From Caldisericum exile AZM16c01 (GTDB taxonomy: Bacteria; Caldisericota; Caldisericia; Caldisericales; Caldisericaceae): a DNA stretch of 64,000 nt. Position 1 is the first letter of the stretch. Every line of letters begins with the position of its first letter. This document shows, one piece after another, positions 46,156-54,911 of this stretch. Below the pieces are notes generated by a model, which was not told the origin of the DNA, did not search any database, and saw only the letters and a program-made list of their open reading frames with translations. The translations under genes were made by a program, and so were the position numbers. The stretch is from NCBI RefSeq assembly GCF_000284335.1, contig NC_017096.1, positions 1,116,001 to 1,180,000 of the forward strand, given 5' to 3'.

Positions 46156-46161
46156 ATTGTG

Positions 46162-46530
46162 ATGAAAGTTGAAGAAATTATTAAAATAGCAAATGCTGAA
46201 GTCCTGCAAGATGTTGGAAATTGGGACGCAAATATAAAGTATGGCTTTGCCGCAGATCTACTATCAGACACACTATTCGTAATAAGTAGAGAAGAGGAAG
46301 CAATTCTTCTAATTACTGGCGTTACTAATCCATCGGTTATTAAAACTGCGAAAATACTGGACATTCCTGTAGTTCTTATTGTTAGAGGAAAGCCTGTAGA
46401 ACAGGTAACTATTGACCTTGCAAGAAAAGAAAAAATAATACTTTTAAAAACGAAACATATAATGTTTGTTACATGTGGGCTTCTCTATAAAGAAGGTCTT
46501 GAAGGAGCACCTTGGAAACTACAATATTAA
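46162..46530 (+). CDS. DRTGG-domain protein
   Basis: 122 residues, a stand-alone DRTGG-type alpha/beta domain (VEEIIKIANAEVLQD at the start; LLITGVTNPSVIKTAKILDIPVVLIVRGKPVEQVTIDLARKEKIILLKTKHIMF). In anaerobes such proteins are encoded with anti-sigma-type ATPases and hydrogenase genes; their ligand is not established. No Shine-Dalgarno precedes the ATG, which coincides with the predicted transcription start. The next gene starts inside its end. Confidence 0.8.
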   Translation: MKVEEIIKIANAEVLQDVGNWDANIKYGFAADLLSDTLFVISREEEAILLITGVTNPSVIKTAKILDIPVVLIVRGKPVEQVTIDLARKEKIILLKTKHIMFVTCGLLYKEGLEGAPWKLQY

Positions 46531-47345
46531 TTTCTGAATTTTTTGTATTTGGAGACGATTTTGAACACTTAGGAGATGGCACTCTGAAGACAAGGGAAAC
46601 ACTTGAAAAAGCGCTTGATGGATTCGAATTTTTTAAAAGGCATCAATCTCTTAAAAAAGAAAATCTGAGGAAGCTTGGTGTTTGCTCATATGAAGCAGAA
46701 TCAAACATAGTAATACACGCAAAATTCGGTATTATAAAAACTTACGCAAATGAGAACAAAATAAAGACCATAGCAAAAGATATAGGACCAGGGATCCCGA
46801 AATTACTTCTTGCACTAACCCCAGGATTTTCTACCGCATCCGATAAAGCAAGAAAATTAGGGTTTGGTGCAGGAATGGGTTTAAAAAATATCCAAAAGAT
46901 TTCAGATTTTTTTGTTATAACTTCAAAATTTGGAAAAGGAACATACCTAACATTCGAGATATGGAATGAAGAAATAAACAAGGAGGGAACAAAAATGAAA
47001 ATAAAACACCTTATAAAAGAACTGCAATTAGAAGTCCTTACCAAATATAACGAAGAAATCCTTGAGAAAATAATCAAAGATGCCTATGCATGCGATCTTT
47101 TGAGTAGAGTTCTTGCAAAAGCAAACGAAGATAGTGCTTGGATTACGATTCAAACAAATGTAAATGTCGTAGGCGTTGCAGTAATAAAGAGGGTACCAAT
47201 CATAATTATAACAGAAGGAGAATTTGTTCCTGAAGAAACAATAAAAAAAGCAGAAGAAAATTCAATAATAATAGCAAGAACTACACATACAACATTTGAA
47301 TTGTCAGGCAAGTTATACACACTTCTCGAACCTGAAACTAAATAA
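46512..47345 (+). CDS. Anti-sigma-type ATPase fused in frame to a second DRTGG-like domain
   Basis: 277 residues from a TTG start at 46512 with AAGGAG four bases ahead. Residues about 25-155 are a GHKL/RsbW-like ATPase: N box YEAESNIVIHAKFG, KDIGPGIPKLL, and GFGAGMGLKNIQKISD. Residues 162-277 form a DRTGG-like domain (MKIKHLIKELQLEVL... ARTTHTTFELSGKLY). At the join, an ATG at 46995 is preceded by GGAGG eight bases back, as if two adjacent genes have lost the stop between them. Both full fusion and a separate 116-residue C-part could be made. Likely senses redox or energy state for the Fdh operon (inference). Confidence 0.8.
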   Translation: METTILISEFFVFGDDFEHLGDGTLKTRETLEKALDGFEFFKRHQSLKKENLRKLGVCSYEAESNIVIHAKFGIIKTYANENKIKTIAKDIGPGIPKLLLALTPGFSTASDKARKLGFGAGMGLKNIQKISDFFVITSKFGKGTYLTFEIWNEEINKEGTKMKIKHLIKELQLEVLTKYNEEILEKIIKDAYACDLLSRVLAKANEDSAWITIQTNVNVVGVAVIKRVPIIIITEGEFVPEETIKKAEENSIIIARTTHTTFELSGKLYTLLEPETK

Positions 47346-50300
47346 TTTCGTCTAAAGAATAGATGTTAATTCCTTGATAGTTTTTGAGTTTTGGCTTATC
47401 ATCTACTACTATATCTGTAAGTCTTAACTTTTTTGCAATGAGAATTGCTTCGCCTGTGGTATATTTTCCTGATACTCTCCTTGCTATATCCTCTGCAAGC
47501 CTTTCCTCAATTGTTGTAAGACCAATAACGGTTATACGGAACCGCCCTTCAACGATGTCTATAACTTCACTTTTTTGAGAAGCCGAAATACATGCTTTCG
47601 AAAGTAAGTCATTTCTGATTTCCTGGGGAAGGCCTGAACTTTCATAAATTTTTCTTAAAGAAGACGCATCAGAAACATACTTTGTCTTAAGTTCAATTTT
47701 TGTGAAATGTTTTGTTTCAGGAATTGCAGGCTTAGATTCAAGTTCGACATTCTCTTCATTTGTTGGGACTTTTTCAACTTTTTCTTCTCGCTTTTTCCGA
47801 TTTTCCTCTTCAAGTTTTCTTAGAAGTTCTTCAAAAGTCGATTTAAATTCTTCCTTTTTACTCTTTTCTTCAATATGTTCTTCGCTTACAACTTTTTCTC
47901 TATATGGAGCTACTTTTTCCTTTTCACTTTTTTCTTCAATTTCTTGAATTTCTTCGAGATTTGGCTGTGCAAAATCCGCAAAGGAAACCTCATGCTCCTC
48001 TTCCTTTACTTCCTTACTAACCTCAACTGGTGGCTTATGGACAATTTCTTTGTTTTCGACTTTTTCAATTTCTTCCTTGGGAACAGTCTGTTCATATAAA
48101 GTTTTCTCTTCGGGCGGTTTCAAAACTTCCTCAGGTTTTCCTTCAATAATTTCCTCTGTTATTTTGCTACTTATAGTTTTTCTCTCAAACTCTTTTTTCT
48201 CAGTTTCTGGAATTTTTTCTTCGGGTTTCGTTACCTCTTCTTCCTTTACCAGCTTTTCTTCTACCTCAATTTCAGGTTTTTGTTCCTGAGGAACTTTTTC
48301 TTGGGGTGTTTCTATCTTTTGTTTTTCAATTGTTAATTTTTCAGTTCTTCTTGGAGGAGCTGGTCTAAAGACTCTATGAGTTAGTTCAATTTCTTCTTTT
48401 GGAGTTTCTTTTATGACATCCTCGGGTGGTCTAATAGGAATTGTTTTAACTTTTGGAATTTCTTCATGAATCTCCCCGGGCGTTGCCTTAATCTCCTCAA
48501 CTTGCGTACCTTCTTTAACTTCAAGATCCTTAACATTAAATGCAATTGGCTTTTTCTTAACTTCTTCTACATTTACAACGGGGATTCTTTCTTTTTTGCC
48601 TTTCGGTACAAGGAGAATTATAATTAGTAAGATAAAAAGAGCAAATATGGCAGATGAAATTATATCAACTGTTAATCCCGGAATATAGTTAGAAATATAT
48701 TGGTAAATTTTTTCAGAGATCGGTCTCAAGAAACCCAAAATATTAGTTGCAACTCCTTTAAAGAAAGTTTTTATAACATCAAGAATATTATTTACATTAC
48801 TTTGTGTGAAAATTCCTGTAAAAAAAACTGAAACATTCTTTAAAATGCCTGAAAGATAATTCTTAACTTCGTCAAAAAAGTTATCTTTGTTTGTTGTTCC
48901 TTGGTTAGTGTTCACATTTGGAGTCGTTTGTCCAGTTCCATTTGTTTGGGTTCCACCGTTAGTAATAAGAGTTACATTTACAGTGTTCGGCGAGTCAAGA
49001 GGTAAAAGGGTCGTAAAAATCTCTTTATTTCCTTCGATTCCGAGATCAAAAACGGCAATAGGTTTACTTGAGGTAATATTTACTGAAGAAAAACTATCCT
49101 TAAAAAGAAAAGTCTTTGATTTATAACTATTTAACGAAAAGTTATTTCCGTTGAGGTTTATGTTGGTGTTCTCTTCGCTACCAACAATAACAACGCGCCT
49201 TTGTCTTTCTCCATATATTTTTGTTACAATACCTGTATGGAATTTAAAAATAGTTCCGTCATTAAATGAAGGTATCTGTTCACCGTCAACATTTCCATAT
49301 TGAGAATACGTATATATTAGTACAGGCTTTGAAAAACTAAGAGAAACTTCTTTATATTCAGTAGTATTTGGTTTGAATTCGCTGGGACTTAAAACATCCA
49401 AGTATTTAAAATCATTTGCCTTTTCAAGAGTAAACGTGCTTGTCTTATCGTCAAGTTTGACAGAAACTGTCGTGTTATCAAAAATAGATGAAATCCCAAG
49501 ACCACCAAATAAGATAACATTTGTAGAGTATATACCATAAAGCGTAGAAAACACATTATCATCTGCATAACCATACTCGACTAAAACAGGGTGATCTGCT
49601 GTAATCGTGTAGACACCTTCAGCTAATTTAGTATTAGCGTAAAAAGAATTAGCCTTTAGTAAAGTATCAAATACAGTATTTCCATTGCTATCAGTAATTT
49701 TTAGGTTGGTATCTGTTATTGATGTTACAAACAAAACTTTCGGAATATACAATTTGAAAAATGTTCCAAAAACTGCACTTACATCATCGGAAGAATTCTT
49801 ATCAAAAGGTGGGGTAAGGGTAGAAAATTCCGCAAAACATTGTTTTGTTGAATTAAGTGCAAATATTGAATCATATGTTAAGTCAACAGATGTAAAGTTA
49901 AGGGCATCAAGATCCTTTTCGAAAATAACCTTATTTGACCTGGTATCTACAATTGAAATTTGGTTACCATCCTCATAAGAGACGATAAAAATTTTACCTT
50001 TTTGTGGAATAACAAAGTGCGTGCCAATGAAATTAGGTATATAGAAATCTTTCTTTGAAAAGTTACTGCCTTCTGGAACTAACTTTAAAACCTTTTTTTC
50101 TTTTGCTCCTAATGATAAGGCAGTCTTAAAAGTAACTTCATTATTATCTTCACTAAAATAGAGAGGAAGGGGAACCCCATTATTTAAAAGCGAAAAGCTT
50201 TGTGCATTAGGGAGAACGTCTTTTTTTACTTTAAACGTTATCACTCTGAAAATTGGAATATTTAAAGTATTTTCAAAAGAAACACTAATACCTTCTTCCC

Positions 50301-50367
50301 CCTTTAAGGGAGAGCTCAAAGTAAGCACCAAAGTTAGAACAACCACCAAAGTCAAAAACTTTTTCAC
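47338..50367 (-). CDS. Large single-pass membrane protein with outer beta-rich region and cytoplasmic PIN-like domain
   Basis: 1009 residues from a GTG with AAGGGG ahead. Signal peptide 1-23; an extracytoplasmic beta-rich region (about 25-465) with repeated 'vtS~~DT~~~i~d~~Gn~~f' strands like surface adhesins; an N/T/G-rich linker (470-494); one membrane helix (568-588, followed by KGKKER); a 300-residue Glu/Lys/Pro-rich cytoplasmic spacer; and a C-terminal domain (897-1009) that looks PIN-like. In the last, Asp900 (SDASS), Glu973 (TGEAILIAKKL) and Asp989/Asp990 (VVDDKPKL) fall in the order of PIN nuclease acids. No homologous system is known to me. It overlaps the plus-strand fusion gene by 8 bases end to end. 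Confidence 0.75.
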   Translation of the reverse strand: MKKFLTLVVVLTLVLTLSSPLKGEEGISVSFENTLNIPIFRVITFKVKKDVLPNAQSFSLLNNGVPLPLYFSEDNNEVTFKTALSLGAKEKKVLKLVPEGSNFSKKDFYIPNFIGTHFVIPQKGKIFIVSYEDGNQISIVDTRSNKVIFEKDLDALNFTSVDLTYDSIFALNSTKQCFAEFSTLTPPFDKNSSDDVSAVFGTFFKLYIPKVLFVTSITDTNLKITDSNGNTVFDTLLKANSFYANTKLAEGVYTITADHPVLVEYGYADDNVFSTLYGIYSTNVILFGGLGISSIFDNTTVSVKLDDKTSTFTLEKANDFKYLDVLSPSEFKPNTTEYKEVSLSFSKPVLIYTYSQYGNVDGEQIPSFNDGTIFKFHTGIVTKIYGERQRRVVIVGSEENTNINLNGNNFSLNSYKSKTFLFKDSFSSVNITSSKPIAVFDLGIEGNKEIFTTLLPLDSPNTVNVTLITNGGTQTNGTGQTTPNVNTNQGTTNKDNFFDEVKNYLSGILKNVSVFFTGIFTQSNVNNILDVIKTFFKGVATNILGFLRPISEKIYQYISNYIPGLTVDIISSAIFALFILLIIILLVPKGKKERIPVVNVEEVKKKPIAFNVKDLEVKEGTQVEEIKATPGEIHEEIPKVKTIPIRPPEDVIKETPKEEIELTHRVFRPAPPRRTEKLTIEKQKIETPQEKVPQEQKPEIEVEEKLVKEEEVTKPEEKIPETEKKEFERKTISSKITEEIIEGKPEEVLKPPEEKTLYEQTVPKEEIEKVENKEIVHKPPVEVSKEVKEEEHEVSFADFAQPNLEEIQEIEEKSEKEKVAPYREKVVSEEHIEEKSKKEEFKSTFEELLRKLEEENRKKREEKVEKVPTNEENVELESKPAIPETKHFTKIELKTKYVSDASSLRKIYESSGLPQEIRNDLLSKACISASQKSEVIDIVEGRFRITVIGLTTIEERLAEDIARRVSGKYTTGEAILIAKKLRLTDIVVDDKPKLKNYQGINIYSLDEII

Positions 50368-50383
50368 TTCTTCCCCTTCCTAT

Positions 50384-50411
50384 ATAATACTACATATTGC
50401 TATTTTTTCAA
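50384..50411 (-). promoter_or_regulatory. Promoter of the 1009-residue membrane protein gene
   Basis: TTGAAA (50411-50406), 16-base spacer, TATTAT (50389-50384) on the minus strand, directly after the rnfB stop. The predicted start is about 50377, leaving a 9-10-base leader that holds AAGGGG. Confidence 0.65.
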
Positions 50412-50412
50412 C

Positions 50413-50700
50413 TTATGCACTCTTTGCCTTCTCCATTATCTCTCTTACCTTTTGTTCAACTTCCTTTCCACCAACAGGGCATGCATCGTATCCTGCTCTA
50501 CCCTCTGCAATGGCCTCAGCACATGGATGACATCCTGGAAAACCACACGCACCACATTCCCCATGCGGTAAAACCTCATATATTGCTTGAACTAAAGGAT
50601 CTTCTTCCACCTTAAATTTCTCATTAAATACACCAAGTAATACACCAAAAAGAACTCCCAATACTCCCAAAGTAGAAACCGATATTAAAATATCCTTCAT
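50413..50700 (-). CDS. rnfB: Short RnfB (N-terminal helix and one [4Fe-4S] site only)
   Basis: 95 residues. A membrane helix (5-27) is followed by the RnfB cluster motif GECGACGFPGCHPCAEAI...DACPVGG. Other RnfB proteins continue for 150 or more residues with further ferredoxin domains; here the frame stops and a new promoter and gene begin within 50 bases. It ends the rnfCDGEAB run. Electron entry may depend on a separate ferredoxin. Confidence 0.88.
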   Translation of the reverse strand: MKDILISVSTLGVLGVLFGVLLGVFNEKFKVEEDPLVQAIYEVLPHGECGACGFPGCHPCAEAIAEGRAGYDACPVGGKEVEQKVREIMEKAKSA

Positions 50701-50713
50701 ATCACACCTCTAA

Positions 50714-51304
50714 TTATTTGATCATACCACTAAATCCAAGAAACGCTAAAGACAAAATACCTGAAATCATGAAAGCAATCGCCTTTCCTTTAAAGAAAGC
50801 AGGCACATCGGAATTTCTCAATCTTTCCCTAATGCCTGCAAGAAGAAGCATCGCTATTGCATATCCAAAGGCAATACCAAATCCAGAAACAATTGACTCA
50901 ACAAAATCATACTTGTTCATTGAGTTTATAAATGTTGCTCCGAGAATAAGACAGTTTGTTGCAATCAAAGGAAGGTAAATGCCCATCGCCTTATATAGAT
51001 TTGGCGATGCCTTTTTAATGTAAATTTCAACAAGTCCTACAAAAGAACCTATAACAAGGATAAATGATGTGATTTGAAGTGCAGGCTGTAAACCCGCTGG
51101 AATAAGAATCCAGTTATCAATCATCCACGCAAGAATTGAAGAGGAAACTGTTACAAAAATTACAGCAAAACTCATACCTATTGATGAAGAGAGACTATCA
51201 GTAAGCCCTATATATGAACAAAGCCCCAAAAACTGAATAAGGATAATATTATTTATTACAGACGACGATACAAAAATTTTAAGAAGATTTTCTAAGTAAT
51301 TCAT
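50714..51304 (-). CDS. rnfA: Rnf complex subunit A
   Basis: 196 residues, six membrane helices, homologous to NqrE. Blocks FLGLCSYIGLTDSL, PLIATNCLILGATF (with the conserved Cys in a half-channel) and FGIAFGYAIAMLLLAGIRERL are characteristic. It pairs with RnfE to hold a buried iron-sulfur site in homologues. Overlaps rnfE by 4 bases. Confidence 0.95.
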   Translation of the reverse strand: MNYLENLLKIFVSSSVINNIILIQFLGLCSYIGLTDSLSSSIGMSFAVIFVTVSSSILAWMIDNWILIPAGLQPALQITSFILVIGSFVGLVEIYIKKASPNLYKAMGIYLPLIATNCLILGATFINSMNKYDFVESIVSGFGIAFGYAIAMLLLAGIRERLRNSDVPAFFKGKAIAFMISGILSLAFLGFSGMIK

Positions 51305-51903
51305 TTTTTACCCTCCTTACGCTTCAGGTAAGTTTCAAGCGCCCCAACAAGTATCCCAATCATAATAAAACCAGCAGGGGGTAGTATCATTAAAAGCATT
51401 GGTTGATAACTTTCAGGCATTATCTGGATTCCCGCAAGTGTCCCTTTACCAATCAATTCCCTTATAATTGCGATTGCTACAAGCACAATACCATAACCAA
51501 TAGTATTACCAATTCCATCAAGGAACGAATCAAAAACACCATTTTGATAAGCAAATGCCTCAGCCCTTCCTATAATAATACAATTTACAACTACAAGAAG
51601 AATGTAAAGCTTAATGATTTGATATACTGAGTTAAAATATGCCTGTGAAAGAAGTGCTGCAATTGTGGTAAATGCCGCGATAACAGATACAAATATAGGA
51701 ACTCTTATCTCATGAGGAATTATTTTTCTCATTGCAGAAACTATAATATTTGATGGTATCTGAACCATTGCAAAGGCAAAAGTCATAAGTAATGCACTCT
51801 GCACAGAATTTGAAACTGCAATTACAGAACACAAACCGATTGAAATTATAAGTACAGGGTTATTTGGTATTATTGCATTCCAGATTATTTTCAATTTGTT
51901 CAT
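51301..51903 (-). CDS. rnfE: Rnf complex subunit E
   Basis: 200 residues, NqrD-like six-helix membrane protein. Typical segments are GLCSVIAVSNSVQSALLM, LLVVNCIIIGRAEAFA (conserved Cys) and DGIGNTIGYGIVLVAIAIIREL. Four-base overlaps with rnfG and rnfA. Confidence 0.95.
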   Translation of the reverse strand: MNKLKIIWNAIIPNNPVLIISIGLCSVIAVSNSVQSALLMTFAFAMVQIPSNIIVSAMRKIIPHEIRVPIFVSVIAAFTTIAALLSQAYFNSVYQIIKLYILLVVVNCIIIGRAEAFAYQNGVFDSFLDGIGNTIGYGIVLVAIAIIRELIGKGTLAGIQIMPESYQPMLLMILPPAGFIMIGILVGALETYLKRKEGKK

Positions 51904-52499
51904 TGCCCTGCCTCCTTAAGATAAGCAACCATTGCCTCTCCTGCAACTTTCACTCCCTTTGAAACCGCCGAAGATGTAATTGTTGCACCCGTCATTGCAA
52001 TAACGTCTTGTTTAGGTATCAATTTATCTTTTATAACATTTTTATCAATAAACTGTCCCAGAAAAGTGATTTTATTTTTCTTATCAACATAATATTTAGG
52101 ATTGTCCGCATTCGCACCGAGTCCTGCGGTTTCATTTAATTTAAGAATTTTTACCCCGGAAACTGATCCGTCACTTTTAACTCCTACAAGCATTTCAATC
52201 GGCGCTTGAGATCCAGGTACAGTTACCCTTGAAACCATTCCAACTGGCTTGCCACTTGCCTTATCTTTAACAAGATAGCACTCTGTAATTTGAACAGATG
52301 GATCCTGGGCTGTGATTGGTTTATCTAATTTCAAAAACTCATAGTCTCCTGGAAATATTTCTGATAAACCCTGTTCCAATGCTTTTGCATCTTGTGCTGC
52401 GATGATTGGCTTAGTGATCTTGTAAACAATTGCAAGTGCAAATCCAGTTATTGCGGCAATAAGACCCAAAGTAATTGCAAATTTAACAATACTTTTCAT
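51900..52499 (-). CDS. rnfG: Rnf complex subunit G (FMN-carrying)
   Basis: 199 residues. One N-terminal membrane helix (8-29), then an FMN-binding domain outside the membrane. The flavin-attachment motif is TGATITSSAV near residue 170, where the second Thr would bind FMN covalently; NETAGLGANAD is also conserved. The flavin transferase ApbE is not in the window. Confidence 0.94.
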   Translation of the reverse strand: MKSIVKFAITLGLIAAITGFALAIVYKITKPIIAAQDAKALEQGLSEIFPGDYEFLKLDKPITAQDPSVQITECYLVKDKASGKPVGMVSRVTVPGSQAPIEMLVGVKSDGSVSGVKILKLNETAGLGANADNPKYYVDKKNKITFLGQFIDKNVIKDKLIPKQDVIAMTGATITSSAVSKGVKVAGEAMVAYLKEAGQ

Positions 52500-53506
52500 T
52501 TTGCCACCTCTTTTTTAGGCAAAACGCCATAGACTTTTGGCATAATTTTATCAAAATATGGGACGAAGGCATTTCCTAAAAGAATCGAAAACATAACACC
52601 TTCGGGGTAGGATCCAAATTGACGTATAAGAACCGTGAGAAAACCAATAAAAAGCGCATAATAAACCTTTCCCATCGGCGTAATAGGCGATGAACTATAA
52701 TCAGTTGCCATAAAAAACGCACCTAAAAATAGCCCACCTGCAAGTATTGAAAAAATTGGATCTCTTCCAAAAAGAGGTGAAAGAACAAAAACTGTTGCAA
52801 TGTAAATAACAGGTATTTTCCAGTCGATAACCTTTCTTGCCATAAGATACAAGCCACCAATTAAAAGAAGTAATGCAGAAGTTTCACCTAAACTACCCCC
52901 TACCGTGCCAAGGAAAAGTGCTTTGTATAAATTCGCTTTTGATCCAAAATCAGAAATAAGTTGAGAATAACTTTGTAATTTAACTATGTTTAATGGTGTT
53001 GCAGTTGTAATTGAATCAACTGGACTTGCTTGAGAAATATTTTGTAATCCAATCATTATCTGTGGCTTTATCCACGTTGTCATATATGTAGGCCACGAAA
53101 CCATCAACACTGCTCTCCCCACAAGAGCAGGGTTAAATGGGTTTGAACCGATTCCACCGAAAATCATCTTTCCTAAGAGGATACCCGAAAATGCTCCAAC
53201 TACAACCATCCACCAAGGAGATGATGGAGGCAAAGTCATTGCAAGAAGCAATCCTGTAACGGAAGCAGAAAGATCATTTAAAGAAGGTTTTTTATGGAAA
53301 AGAACATTACCTAACATCTCTGCTAAAATTGATGAGATAACAGATACCACTATTACCAAAAGAGATTTTAAACCAAATATAAAAATGCTTCCAATAAGTG
53401 CAGGAGTAATCGCAATTATAACATCACGCATAATAAAAGCGGTAGTAACTTTATCTCTTATATGTGGTGCAGAAGTAACCACAAGATCAATGTCGTAGTT
53501 AGCCAT
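52496..53506 (-). CDS. rnfD: Rnf complex subunit D (FMN-carrying, membrane)
   Basis: 336 residues, NqrB-like, with about nine membrane helices. PPSSPWWMVVVGAFSGILLGKMIFGGIGSNPFNPALVGRAVLMVSWP is the family core, and DSITTATPL is the flavin-attachment loop. It ends in GNAFVPYFDK. It overlaps rnfC by 8 bases. Confidence 0.95.
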   Translation of the reverse strand: MANYDIDLVVTSAPHIRDKVTTAFIMRDVIIAITPALIGSIFIFGLKSLLVIVVSVISSILAEMLGNVLFHKKPSLNDLSASVTGLLLAMTLPPSSPWWMVVVGAFSGILLGKMIFGGIGSNPFNPALVGRAVLMVSWPTYMTTWIKPQIMIGLQNISQASPVDSITTATPLNIVKLQSYSQLISDFGSKANLYKALFLGTVGGSLGETSALLLLIGGLYLMARKVIDWKIPVIYIATVFVLSPLFGRDPIFSILAGGLFLGAFFMATDYSSSPITPMGKVYYALFIGFLTVLIRQFGSYPEGVMFSILLGNAFVPYFDKIMPKVYGVLPKKEVAK

Positions 53507-54911
53507 TTTTCGCCTCCTTTTGGGAGTTTTCCTTTTCTTTTGCTCGCTGTGCTTTTAGTTTTTCAAACGCTGCTTGTTTTGCTGCTTCTATCTTCTTTTG
53601 TTTTATAATTGCCTGTTTAACTTTCTTTATATTCTCAGTTAAGTGTCTTTTTGCTGGACACACATAGGAACATACACCACACTCAATGCAGTCAAGCGCA
53701 CGGAGGGTCTCTGCCGTTTTAAGGTCGTTCTTTCTTGATGCATGGTCAATTAAAACCGGCATAAGCCCCATTGGGCACGAATCAACACAACTTGCACATC
53801 TTATGCAAGGAGACTCATCCTGAGGTGCCATTTCCAATGCTTCTTCACCAAACATAAGTATCCCAGAAGTGCCTTTTATTACTGGAACTTCAATTGTGGA
53901 CTGTGCAATACCAGTCATAGGTCCGCCAAAAATAAGTTTTCTTAATTTACGATTGAGTCCAAGTGTATCAATAATAAATGATGCTGGAGTTCCAATTCTT
54001 ATAATGTAATTTCCTGGTTTAGAGATAGCATTCCCAGAAACTGTGACTCCTCTCTCAATTAATGGTTTATCTTCAAGGATTGCCTCGGTAATCGCTTTTA
54101 AGGTGCCAACATTCTGTACTACAACACCAACATCAAGTGGTAATCCACCTGATGGAACTTCTCTTTTAAGAACAGCTTTTATAAGTTGCTTTTCTCCACC
54201 TTGAGGGTATTTTGTTTTTACCAATACAACCTCAACATTATCTACACCCATATCTTTTATTTTTTGTTCAAGGAGATTTGCTGCATCAATCTTGTTTTCT
54301 TCTACTGCAATTATTCCCCTCTTTGCACCGGTTATCTTCATTTCAATAAGAATGCCTGTAATAATCTTCTCGGGATACTCAAGCATATTTCTATGGTCTA
54401 CAGTAAGATATGGTTCACATTCTGCTCCATTTCCAATAATTGTGTCTATAACTTTGCCTTTTGGTGGAGTTAATTTTACCGCTGTTGGAAATGCCGCTCC
54501 ACCTAAACCTACAATACCATGCTCTCTTATAATTTTCACAAGTTCCTCAGGTGTTAGATCTTCAAAAGACTTTCTTGGAGAGAGTTCCACCCACTCATCA
54601 TTGTAATCGTTTTCAATAACTACACTTTGAATTTTTGCGCCTGTTGGACACAATCTCTCTTCAATTGCAATTACTTTTCCAGAAACAGTTGCATGAACTG
54701 GTGCAGAAACAGTCTGCGTGGAATCACCAATTTTCTGTCCAACCTTTACATAGTCGCCAACTTGTACCAAGGGTGTATTTGGAGCGCCTGTATGTTGCTG
54801 GAGAGGAATAACTGCAATTGGAGGAGACTTAAACACTTCAAAGGGCAAGTTTTTTGTTAACTTGCTTTCATCTGGATGAATGCCACCAGGTGAGTAAGTA
54901 AAGACCTTCAT
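53499..54911 (-). CDS. rnfC: Rnf complex subunit C (NADH/FMN and two [4Fe-4S])
   Basis: 470 residues. An N-terminal barrel-sandwich-like lead (GGIHPDESK, QHTGAPNTPLVQVGDYVKVGQKIG) is followed by a NuoF-like NADH/FMN domain (GLGGAAFPTAVKL, GNGAECEPYLTVDHRNM) and two [4Fe-4S] sites (CIRCASCVDSCP and CIECGVCSYVCPAKR). The C-terminal tail (430-470) is Lys-rich. First of the six rnf genes. Confidence 0.96.
   Translation of the reverse strand: MKVFTYSPGGIHPDESKLTKNLPFEVFKSPPIAVIPLQQHTGAPNTPLVQVGDYVKVGQKIGDSTQTVSAPVHATVSGKVIAIEERLCPTGAKIQSVVIENDYNDEWVELSPRKSFEDLTPEELVKIIREHGIVGLGGAAFPTAVKLTPPKGKVIDTIIGNGAECEPYLTVDHRNMLEYPEKIITGILIEMKITGAKRGIIAVEENKIDAANLLEQKIKDMGVDNVEVVLVKTKYPQGGEKQLIKAVLKREVPSGGLPLDVGVVVQNVGTLKAITEAILEDKPLIERGVTVSGNAISKPGNYIIRIGTPASFIIDTLGLNRKLRKLIFGGPMTGIAQSTIEVPVIKGTSGILMFGEEALEMAPQDESPCIRCASCVDSCPMGLMPVLIDHASRKNDLKTAETLRALDCIECGVCSYVCPAKRHLTENIKKVKQAIIKQKKIEAAKQAAFEKLKAQRAKEKENSQKEAKNG

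Follow-up and report, generated by a model that had tools for sequence, protein, structure and literature searches.

What does a membrane protein do when the end of its chain that appears to face the cytoplasm carries a domain resembling a nuclease? The question is raised by a gene on the minus strand (47338–50367) of the 64,000-nucleotide stretch of Caldisericum exile AZM16c01 analysed here (NC_017096.1, positions 1,116,001 to 1,180,000; hereafter the window). PIN domains, among the commonest prokaryotic ribonucleases (RNases), usually occur as soluble toxins or processing enzymes. In this case a PIN-fold domain is built into a single-copy envelope protein of a whole class, with a linker of hundreds of residues and apparently a conserved promoter of its own. 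The product is a bitopic membrane protein specific to the class formed by Caldisericum and relatives, and its architecture is a new one, assembled from known parts and near-universal in this little-studied class; no description of a helix-linker-PIN architecture with an ectodomain was found in the open-access literature. A preliminary description, made from the sequence by itself, had read the protein as a surface sensor wired to an internal nuclease. We read it as a PIN-derived module tethered at the inner membrane face, which would bind RNA and would probably cut it where its set of acids is full, a statement to which as a whole we give an even chance of being right.

The C-terminal domain (C-domain) is predicted to have a PIN fold, and two independent tests, one of structure and one of sequence profiles, confirm the assignment. 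An AlphaFold model built from 40 sequences (predicted local distance difference test, pLDDT, 92.3; predicted template modelling score, pTM, 0.87) has the strand and helix order b1-a1-a2-b2-a3-b3-a4-a5-b4-b5, as in PIN domains. When the model was compared with the PDB by Foldseek, ranks 1–34 were VapC and other PIN proteins, except for a CbCas9-PcrIIC1 entry at rank 8 that was left unchecked; the first plainly non-PIN entry stood at rank 35. The top match was the VapC of the Escherichia coli F plasmid (E 8.2e-4, probability 1.00, template modelling (TM) score 0.59), and the closest solved structures of VapC toxins (PF01850), 9h6a, 5ecw and 3tnd, gave TM-scores of 0.58–0.60, which are moderate values. 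Independently, the family profile was aligned by hhalign with that of 33 DUF3368-type PIN proteins, scoring 31.9 (P 8.7e-5) over 86 columns, against at most 21.6 for 60 column shuffles and at most 14.7 for 13 unrelated families from the neighbourhood. The fold order is shared with DUF3368 (PF11848), and the alignment puts its first D, second E, GE motif and DD/DE motif in register. An earlier hhalign run against 10 mixed PIN proteins of the phylum had given no match; that set was small and badly aligned, and was replaced by the 33 DUF3368 proteins. The PIN-like C-domain of the preliminary description is borne out by both tests. Mig-14 and DacZ_A, the best weak Pfam names for the C-domain, match few members and were not adopted.

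The protein has relatives in 43 of the 54 genomes of the phylum that were searched for homologues, all 43 being among the 49 genomes of the class, with one gene per genome. A chance open reading frame is ruled out by the recovery of 42 distinct homologous C-domains and by the recurring domain order, so that the single 1009-residue frame of the preliminary description, on the minus strand with a GTG start, is real. The C-domain profile matched 43 of 386 genomes, all of the same class and once in each, with no match in the phylum's other class or in 332 genomes outside the phylum (about 340 outside the class in total). Strong matches to the ectodomain profile were likewise confined to the class, with a few weak and partial ones in three distant genomes. 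The protein family therefore appears confined to the class within the genomes searched. In a protein tree, made by a quick method and having several long branches, members group by family, as expected for vertical inheritance.

The layout proposed earlier, running from a signal peptide through an exported beta-rich region, one membrane helix and a charged linker to the C-domain, recurs in the same order among the homologues and is supported as the class-wide architecture. Those that are readably complete have a hydrophobic N-terminus, an optional ectodomain, a membrane helix, a basic patch, a linker and a terminal C-domain. Basic residues directly follow the helix in nearly all of them, which by the positive-inside rule would place the C-domain on the cytoplasmic side. 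In the window protein the linker contains 26% Glu, 17% Lys and 9% Pro; in homologues where it could be measured it spans 117–433 residues. Between close species the C-domain is the best kept part (89%), ahead of the ectodomain (73%) and the linker (55%).

The ectodomain is modelled by AlphaFold as all-beta (pLDDT 89.9, pTM 0.91), with four related repeat units at about residues 110–184, 194–272, 273–359 and 379–454, whose profiles match one another with P down to 1.8e-17 (unit 1 against unit 2). It weakly resembles IgGFc_binding proteins (PF17517): the Pfam model matches 16 of 28 members, with a best E of 1.5e-9, whereas the window protein itself lies below the curated cut-off (E 7e-4; 19.3 bits against 25.6) and no PDB entry matches the whole ectodomain (TM-score on the query at most 0.16 among the matches listed). 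The adhesin or S-layer fold with which the preliminary description proposed to compare it is neither supported nor excluded. A WD-40 profile match, in which no stretch passed alone, was not used, and RodZ_C matches, which in the window protein cover a short piece of one repeat, were not used for naming.

Conservation of the architecture is not complete. Genus g9 has no ectodomain, and almost all of family f3 lacks it too, a single f3 genome (G036) keeping it; helix, linker and C-domain remain in both. Records cut by contig ends or carrying likely draft frameshifts (L028, L032 and L043) were left out of this count. In one of them (L032:8124–8957), on a long contig, the C-domain lies in a 278-residue frame that has no membrane helix, probably through a frameshift in the draft genome G037.

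Whether the C-domain could cut RNA depends on its acids. D900, E934, E973 and D989/D990 align by hhalign with the four PIN acid positions of DUF3368. The preliminary description had placed D900, E973, D989 and D990 correctly and in PIN order, and had overlooked E934, the second acid. The window species and two of its congeners have an acid at each of the four positions, as does family f2. In family f1, D900 and D990 are identical in 18 of 18 members and E973 in 16 of 18; at least 16 of 18 are identical in 26 of the 119 columns, including 900, 954, 960, 973, 980 and 990. Across the class D900 is the sole universal one of the four: E973 is kept in 32 of 42 C-domains, 934 is acidic in a minority, and position 990, Asp in all f1 and Glu in f2, is non-acidic in f3, f4 and f6. 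On this pattern f2 and most of f1 could plausibly retain a complete site of three or four acids, while the domain would be a pseudo-nuclease elsewhere and in congeners G010 and G012. A working nuclease, as the preliminary description supposed, is therefore not supported as a property of the family, and we hold nuclease activity in the window protein itself only tentatively, with a chance somewhat short of even.

In our reading the constant core would be a DUF3368-like PIN-fold domain, anchored to the inner face of the membrane through a single helix and an extended, flexible, charged linker, with the four-unit beta ectodomain usually, not always, attached outside. At the membrane this tethered domain would bind RNA. 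It would probably be able to cleave RNA as well in the window species and family f2, using metal ions coordinated by D900, E934, E973 and D989/D990; in f3, f4, f6 and the two congeners, where the site is incomplete, it would be a binding module only. That helix, linker and PIN-like domain are kept where the ectodomain is lost supports such a tethered core. Several points weigh on the other side. Searching the C-domain sequence directly against Pfam, NCBIfam and the PDB gave no PIN match, and the erosion of the acids in f3, f4, f6, G010 and G012 argues against catalysis as its conserved job. A protein ligand in place of RNA is equally possible.

A protein ligand is what the chief rival explanation assumes, in which the PIN fold is re-used for protein binding and the molecule, a pseudo-nuclease scaffold that never cuts RNA, tethers a ligand in the envelope or cell wall to a partner in the cytoplasm, in the manner of ZipA-like or RodZ-like bitopic proteins. 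Such a role would suit the long Glu/Lys/Pro linker, the single copy inherited vertically by family, and a residue pattern in which the canonical acids are not kept class-wide while every sequence has D900, an acidic residue at 954 and a basic one at 980. It fits poorly with f1, where acids 900, 973 and 990 rank with the most conserved columns, and with f2, whose four acid positions would be needless in a pure scaffold; we consider it rather unlikely. That a PIN domain without catalytic residues can keep a function is seen in SMG5, whose inactive PIN domain completes the active site of its partner SMG6 (PMC12923823); those are two soluble eukaryotic proteins, whereas the C-domain profile finds one copy per genome here. 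The sensor of the preliminary description corresponds to a one-chain receptor, whose ectodomain would sense an outside signal and switch a cytoplasmic PIN RNase. Ectodomain, single helix and PIN-fold domain do stand in one chain that is kept across several families, and all four acids are present in the window species. But g9 and most of f3 have lost the ectodomain and kept the rest, f4 and f6 keep the ectodomain and have lost acids, the two losses being independent, and no signalling gene is linked to this one across the class; conformational coupling, unlike clustering, would moreover be hard to achieve through a linker so flexible and variable in length. With the nuclease site decayed in several relatives and the outer part lost in others, a sensor switching an RNase is not established, and we think it improbable. 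The same low chance goes to the version in which an IgGFc-like beta-repeat ectodomain controls a tethered, metal-dependent PIN RNase that has become a pseudo-enzyme in some families. The layout is formally that of eukaryotic IRE1, which has a sensor outside, one membrane helix and an RNase inside (a KEN RNase with a kinase); the domains are unrelated and the likeness is one of analogy only.

The gene's position suggests a further role, as an accessory protein that assembles, anchors or regulates the Rnf complex encoded upstream. It starts 45 bp behind rnfB on the same strand, directly follows rnfB in this way in f1, f2 and f6, and lies close behind it in f3; it therefore does not stand alone, as the preliminary description had it. 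ApbE comes next after the gene in f6, a further point for such a role. All five f4 genomes, however, keep the gene while RnfC is absent, so that a role tied strictly to Rnf is unlikely and an obligate Rnf partner was rejected. There a zinc-ribbon gene precedes and a gene of AMMECR1 size follows (AMMECR1 in the one case scanned); in f2 the next genes are the unrelated Memo and AMMECR1. The order zinc ribbon, (rnf), gene points to ancient proximity more than to a common function, and in f1 the gene appears to have its own conserved promoter. We regard an Rnf accessory as very improbable. Toxin-antitoxin and defence roles were rejected: no antitoxin gene lies next to the gene, whose neighbours are rnfB and a convergent gene with HATPase- and HPr-kinase-N-like regions, and PADLOC gave no defence-system match.

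Set beside its relatives, the tethered domain remains distinct. VapC is a free toxin paired with VapB, whereas this domain is tethered, chromosomal and class-wide, with rnf neighbours in most families. The DUF3368 proteins compared here have about 150–200 residues with a C-terminal tail, whereas the window domain forms the C-terminus of a large membrane protein; the family C-domain also fails to reach the Pfam threshold, and in several families it has lost acids. Variation within the class provides a ready-made series of proteins with a full, a partial or no acid set, and with or without the ectodomain, so that it can be tested directly whether a tethered PIN domain acts as RNase, RNA binder or scaffold, and whether the outside part controls it. 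Features of the locus are collected in Table 1; the genome that carries it is a single contig of 1,558,103 bases.

Table 1. Features of the gene, its product and its upstream context, in window coordinates (aa, amino acid residues)
Feature	Coordinates	Strand	Basis
Complete coding sequence, 1009 codons plus stop, GTG start at 50367	47338..50367	minus	open frame and homologues in 43 genomes
Strong candidate ribosome-binding site GGAAGGGG	50373..50380	minus	sequence
Candidate promoter TTGAAA-N16-TATTAT in the gap between rnfB and the gene	50384..50411	minus	sequence scan and conservation in f1
Predicted signal peptide, about aa 1–23	50299..50367	minus	hydropathy; hydrophobic N-terminus in most complete homologues
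Predicted exported all-beta domain, aa 25–466	48970..50295	minus	AlphaFold, unit profiles, Pfam IgGFc_binding in relatives
Single strong membrane helix, about aa 568–590, then KGKKER directly	48598..48666	minus	hydropathy
Charged linker, aa 591–890, 52% Glu+Lys+Pro	47698..48597	minus	composition
Predicted C-terminal PIN-fold domain, aa 891–1009	47341..47697	minus	AlphaFold, Foldseek, DUF3368 profile match
D900, first PIN acid, invariant in 41/41	47668..47670	minus	alignment
E934, aligned with second PIN acid; acidic only in three g1 species, all f2 and one more f1 genus	47566..47568	minus	alignment
E954, acidic in 42/42; not a canonical PIN acid	47506..47508	minus	alignment
E973, third PIN acid; lost in f4, f6 and congeners G010 and G012	47449..47451	minus	alignment
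K980, Lys/Arg in 42/42; not a canonical PIN acid	47428..47430	minus	alignment
D989/D990, fourth PIN acid	47398..47403	minus	alignment
Upstream rnf operon, order C-D-G-E-A-B; context only, not part of the protein	50413..54911	minus	gene identification

The promoter assigned to the gene by the preliminary description is supported by its conservation among f1 relatives, on which the claim rests; a sigma-70 scan of the region upstream of the gene, taken by itself, did no better than shuffles. Of 17 f1 loci, 12 have TTGAAA as their top −35 call at a comparable distance, and the mean best score of a promoter scan of these 17 loci was 9.59, against 7.36 for the shuffle null (standard deviation 0.25, maximum 8.12 in 300), a test that overstates independence because the loci are related. 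One of the 17 (L062) was read from the wrong start, which lowers rather than raises the mean. The form TTGAAA-N16-TATNAT with a very short leader is kept across genera of the Caldisericaceae (window 50384–50411, minus strand, and 16 related loci), and is possibly the general sigma-A promoter form of the class.

At its other end the gene has a tail-to-tail overlap of 8 bp with the plus-strand gene at 46512–47345, which encodes the HATPase and HPr-kinase-N-like regions (DRTGG-type). This gene and a second convergent plus-strand gene (46159–46530) are kept beside the target in g1 and g9.

The genome that carries the window gave no match to Pfam PIN (PF01850) or DUF3368 (PF11848), whereas matches do occur in relatives; the tethered domain may be the sole PIN-like one of these kinds in that genome. 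In family f2 (L076, L077 and L085) there is a separate membrane-anchored PIN protein of about 370 residues with a hydrophobic N-terminus, which we take to be of the YacL type (PIN-TRAM). It shares membrane anchoring with the target protein, but its hydrophobic region lies directly before the PIN domain and is accompanied by an extra C-terminal part, and neither an ectodomain nor a long linker was seen. RnfB also differs among families: across f1 (all Caldisericaceae loci, e.g. L050–L063; window 50413–50700, minus strand) it has 95–103 residues, with a membrane helix and a PF04060 Fe-S domain, and in f2, f3 and f6 it has 270–280 residues with further 4Fe-4S domains.

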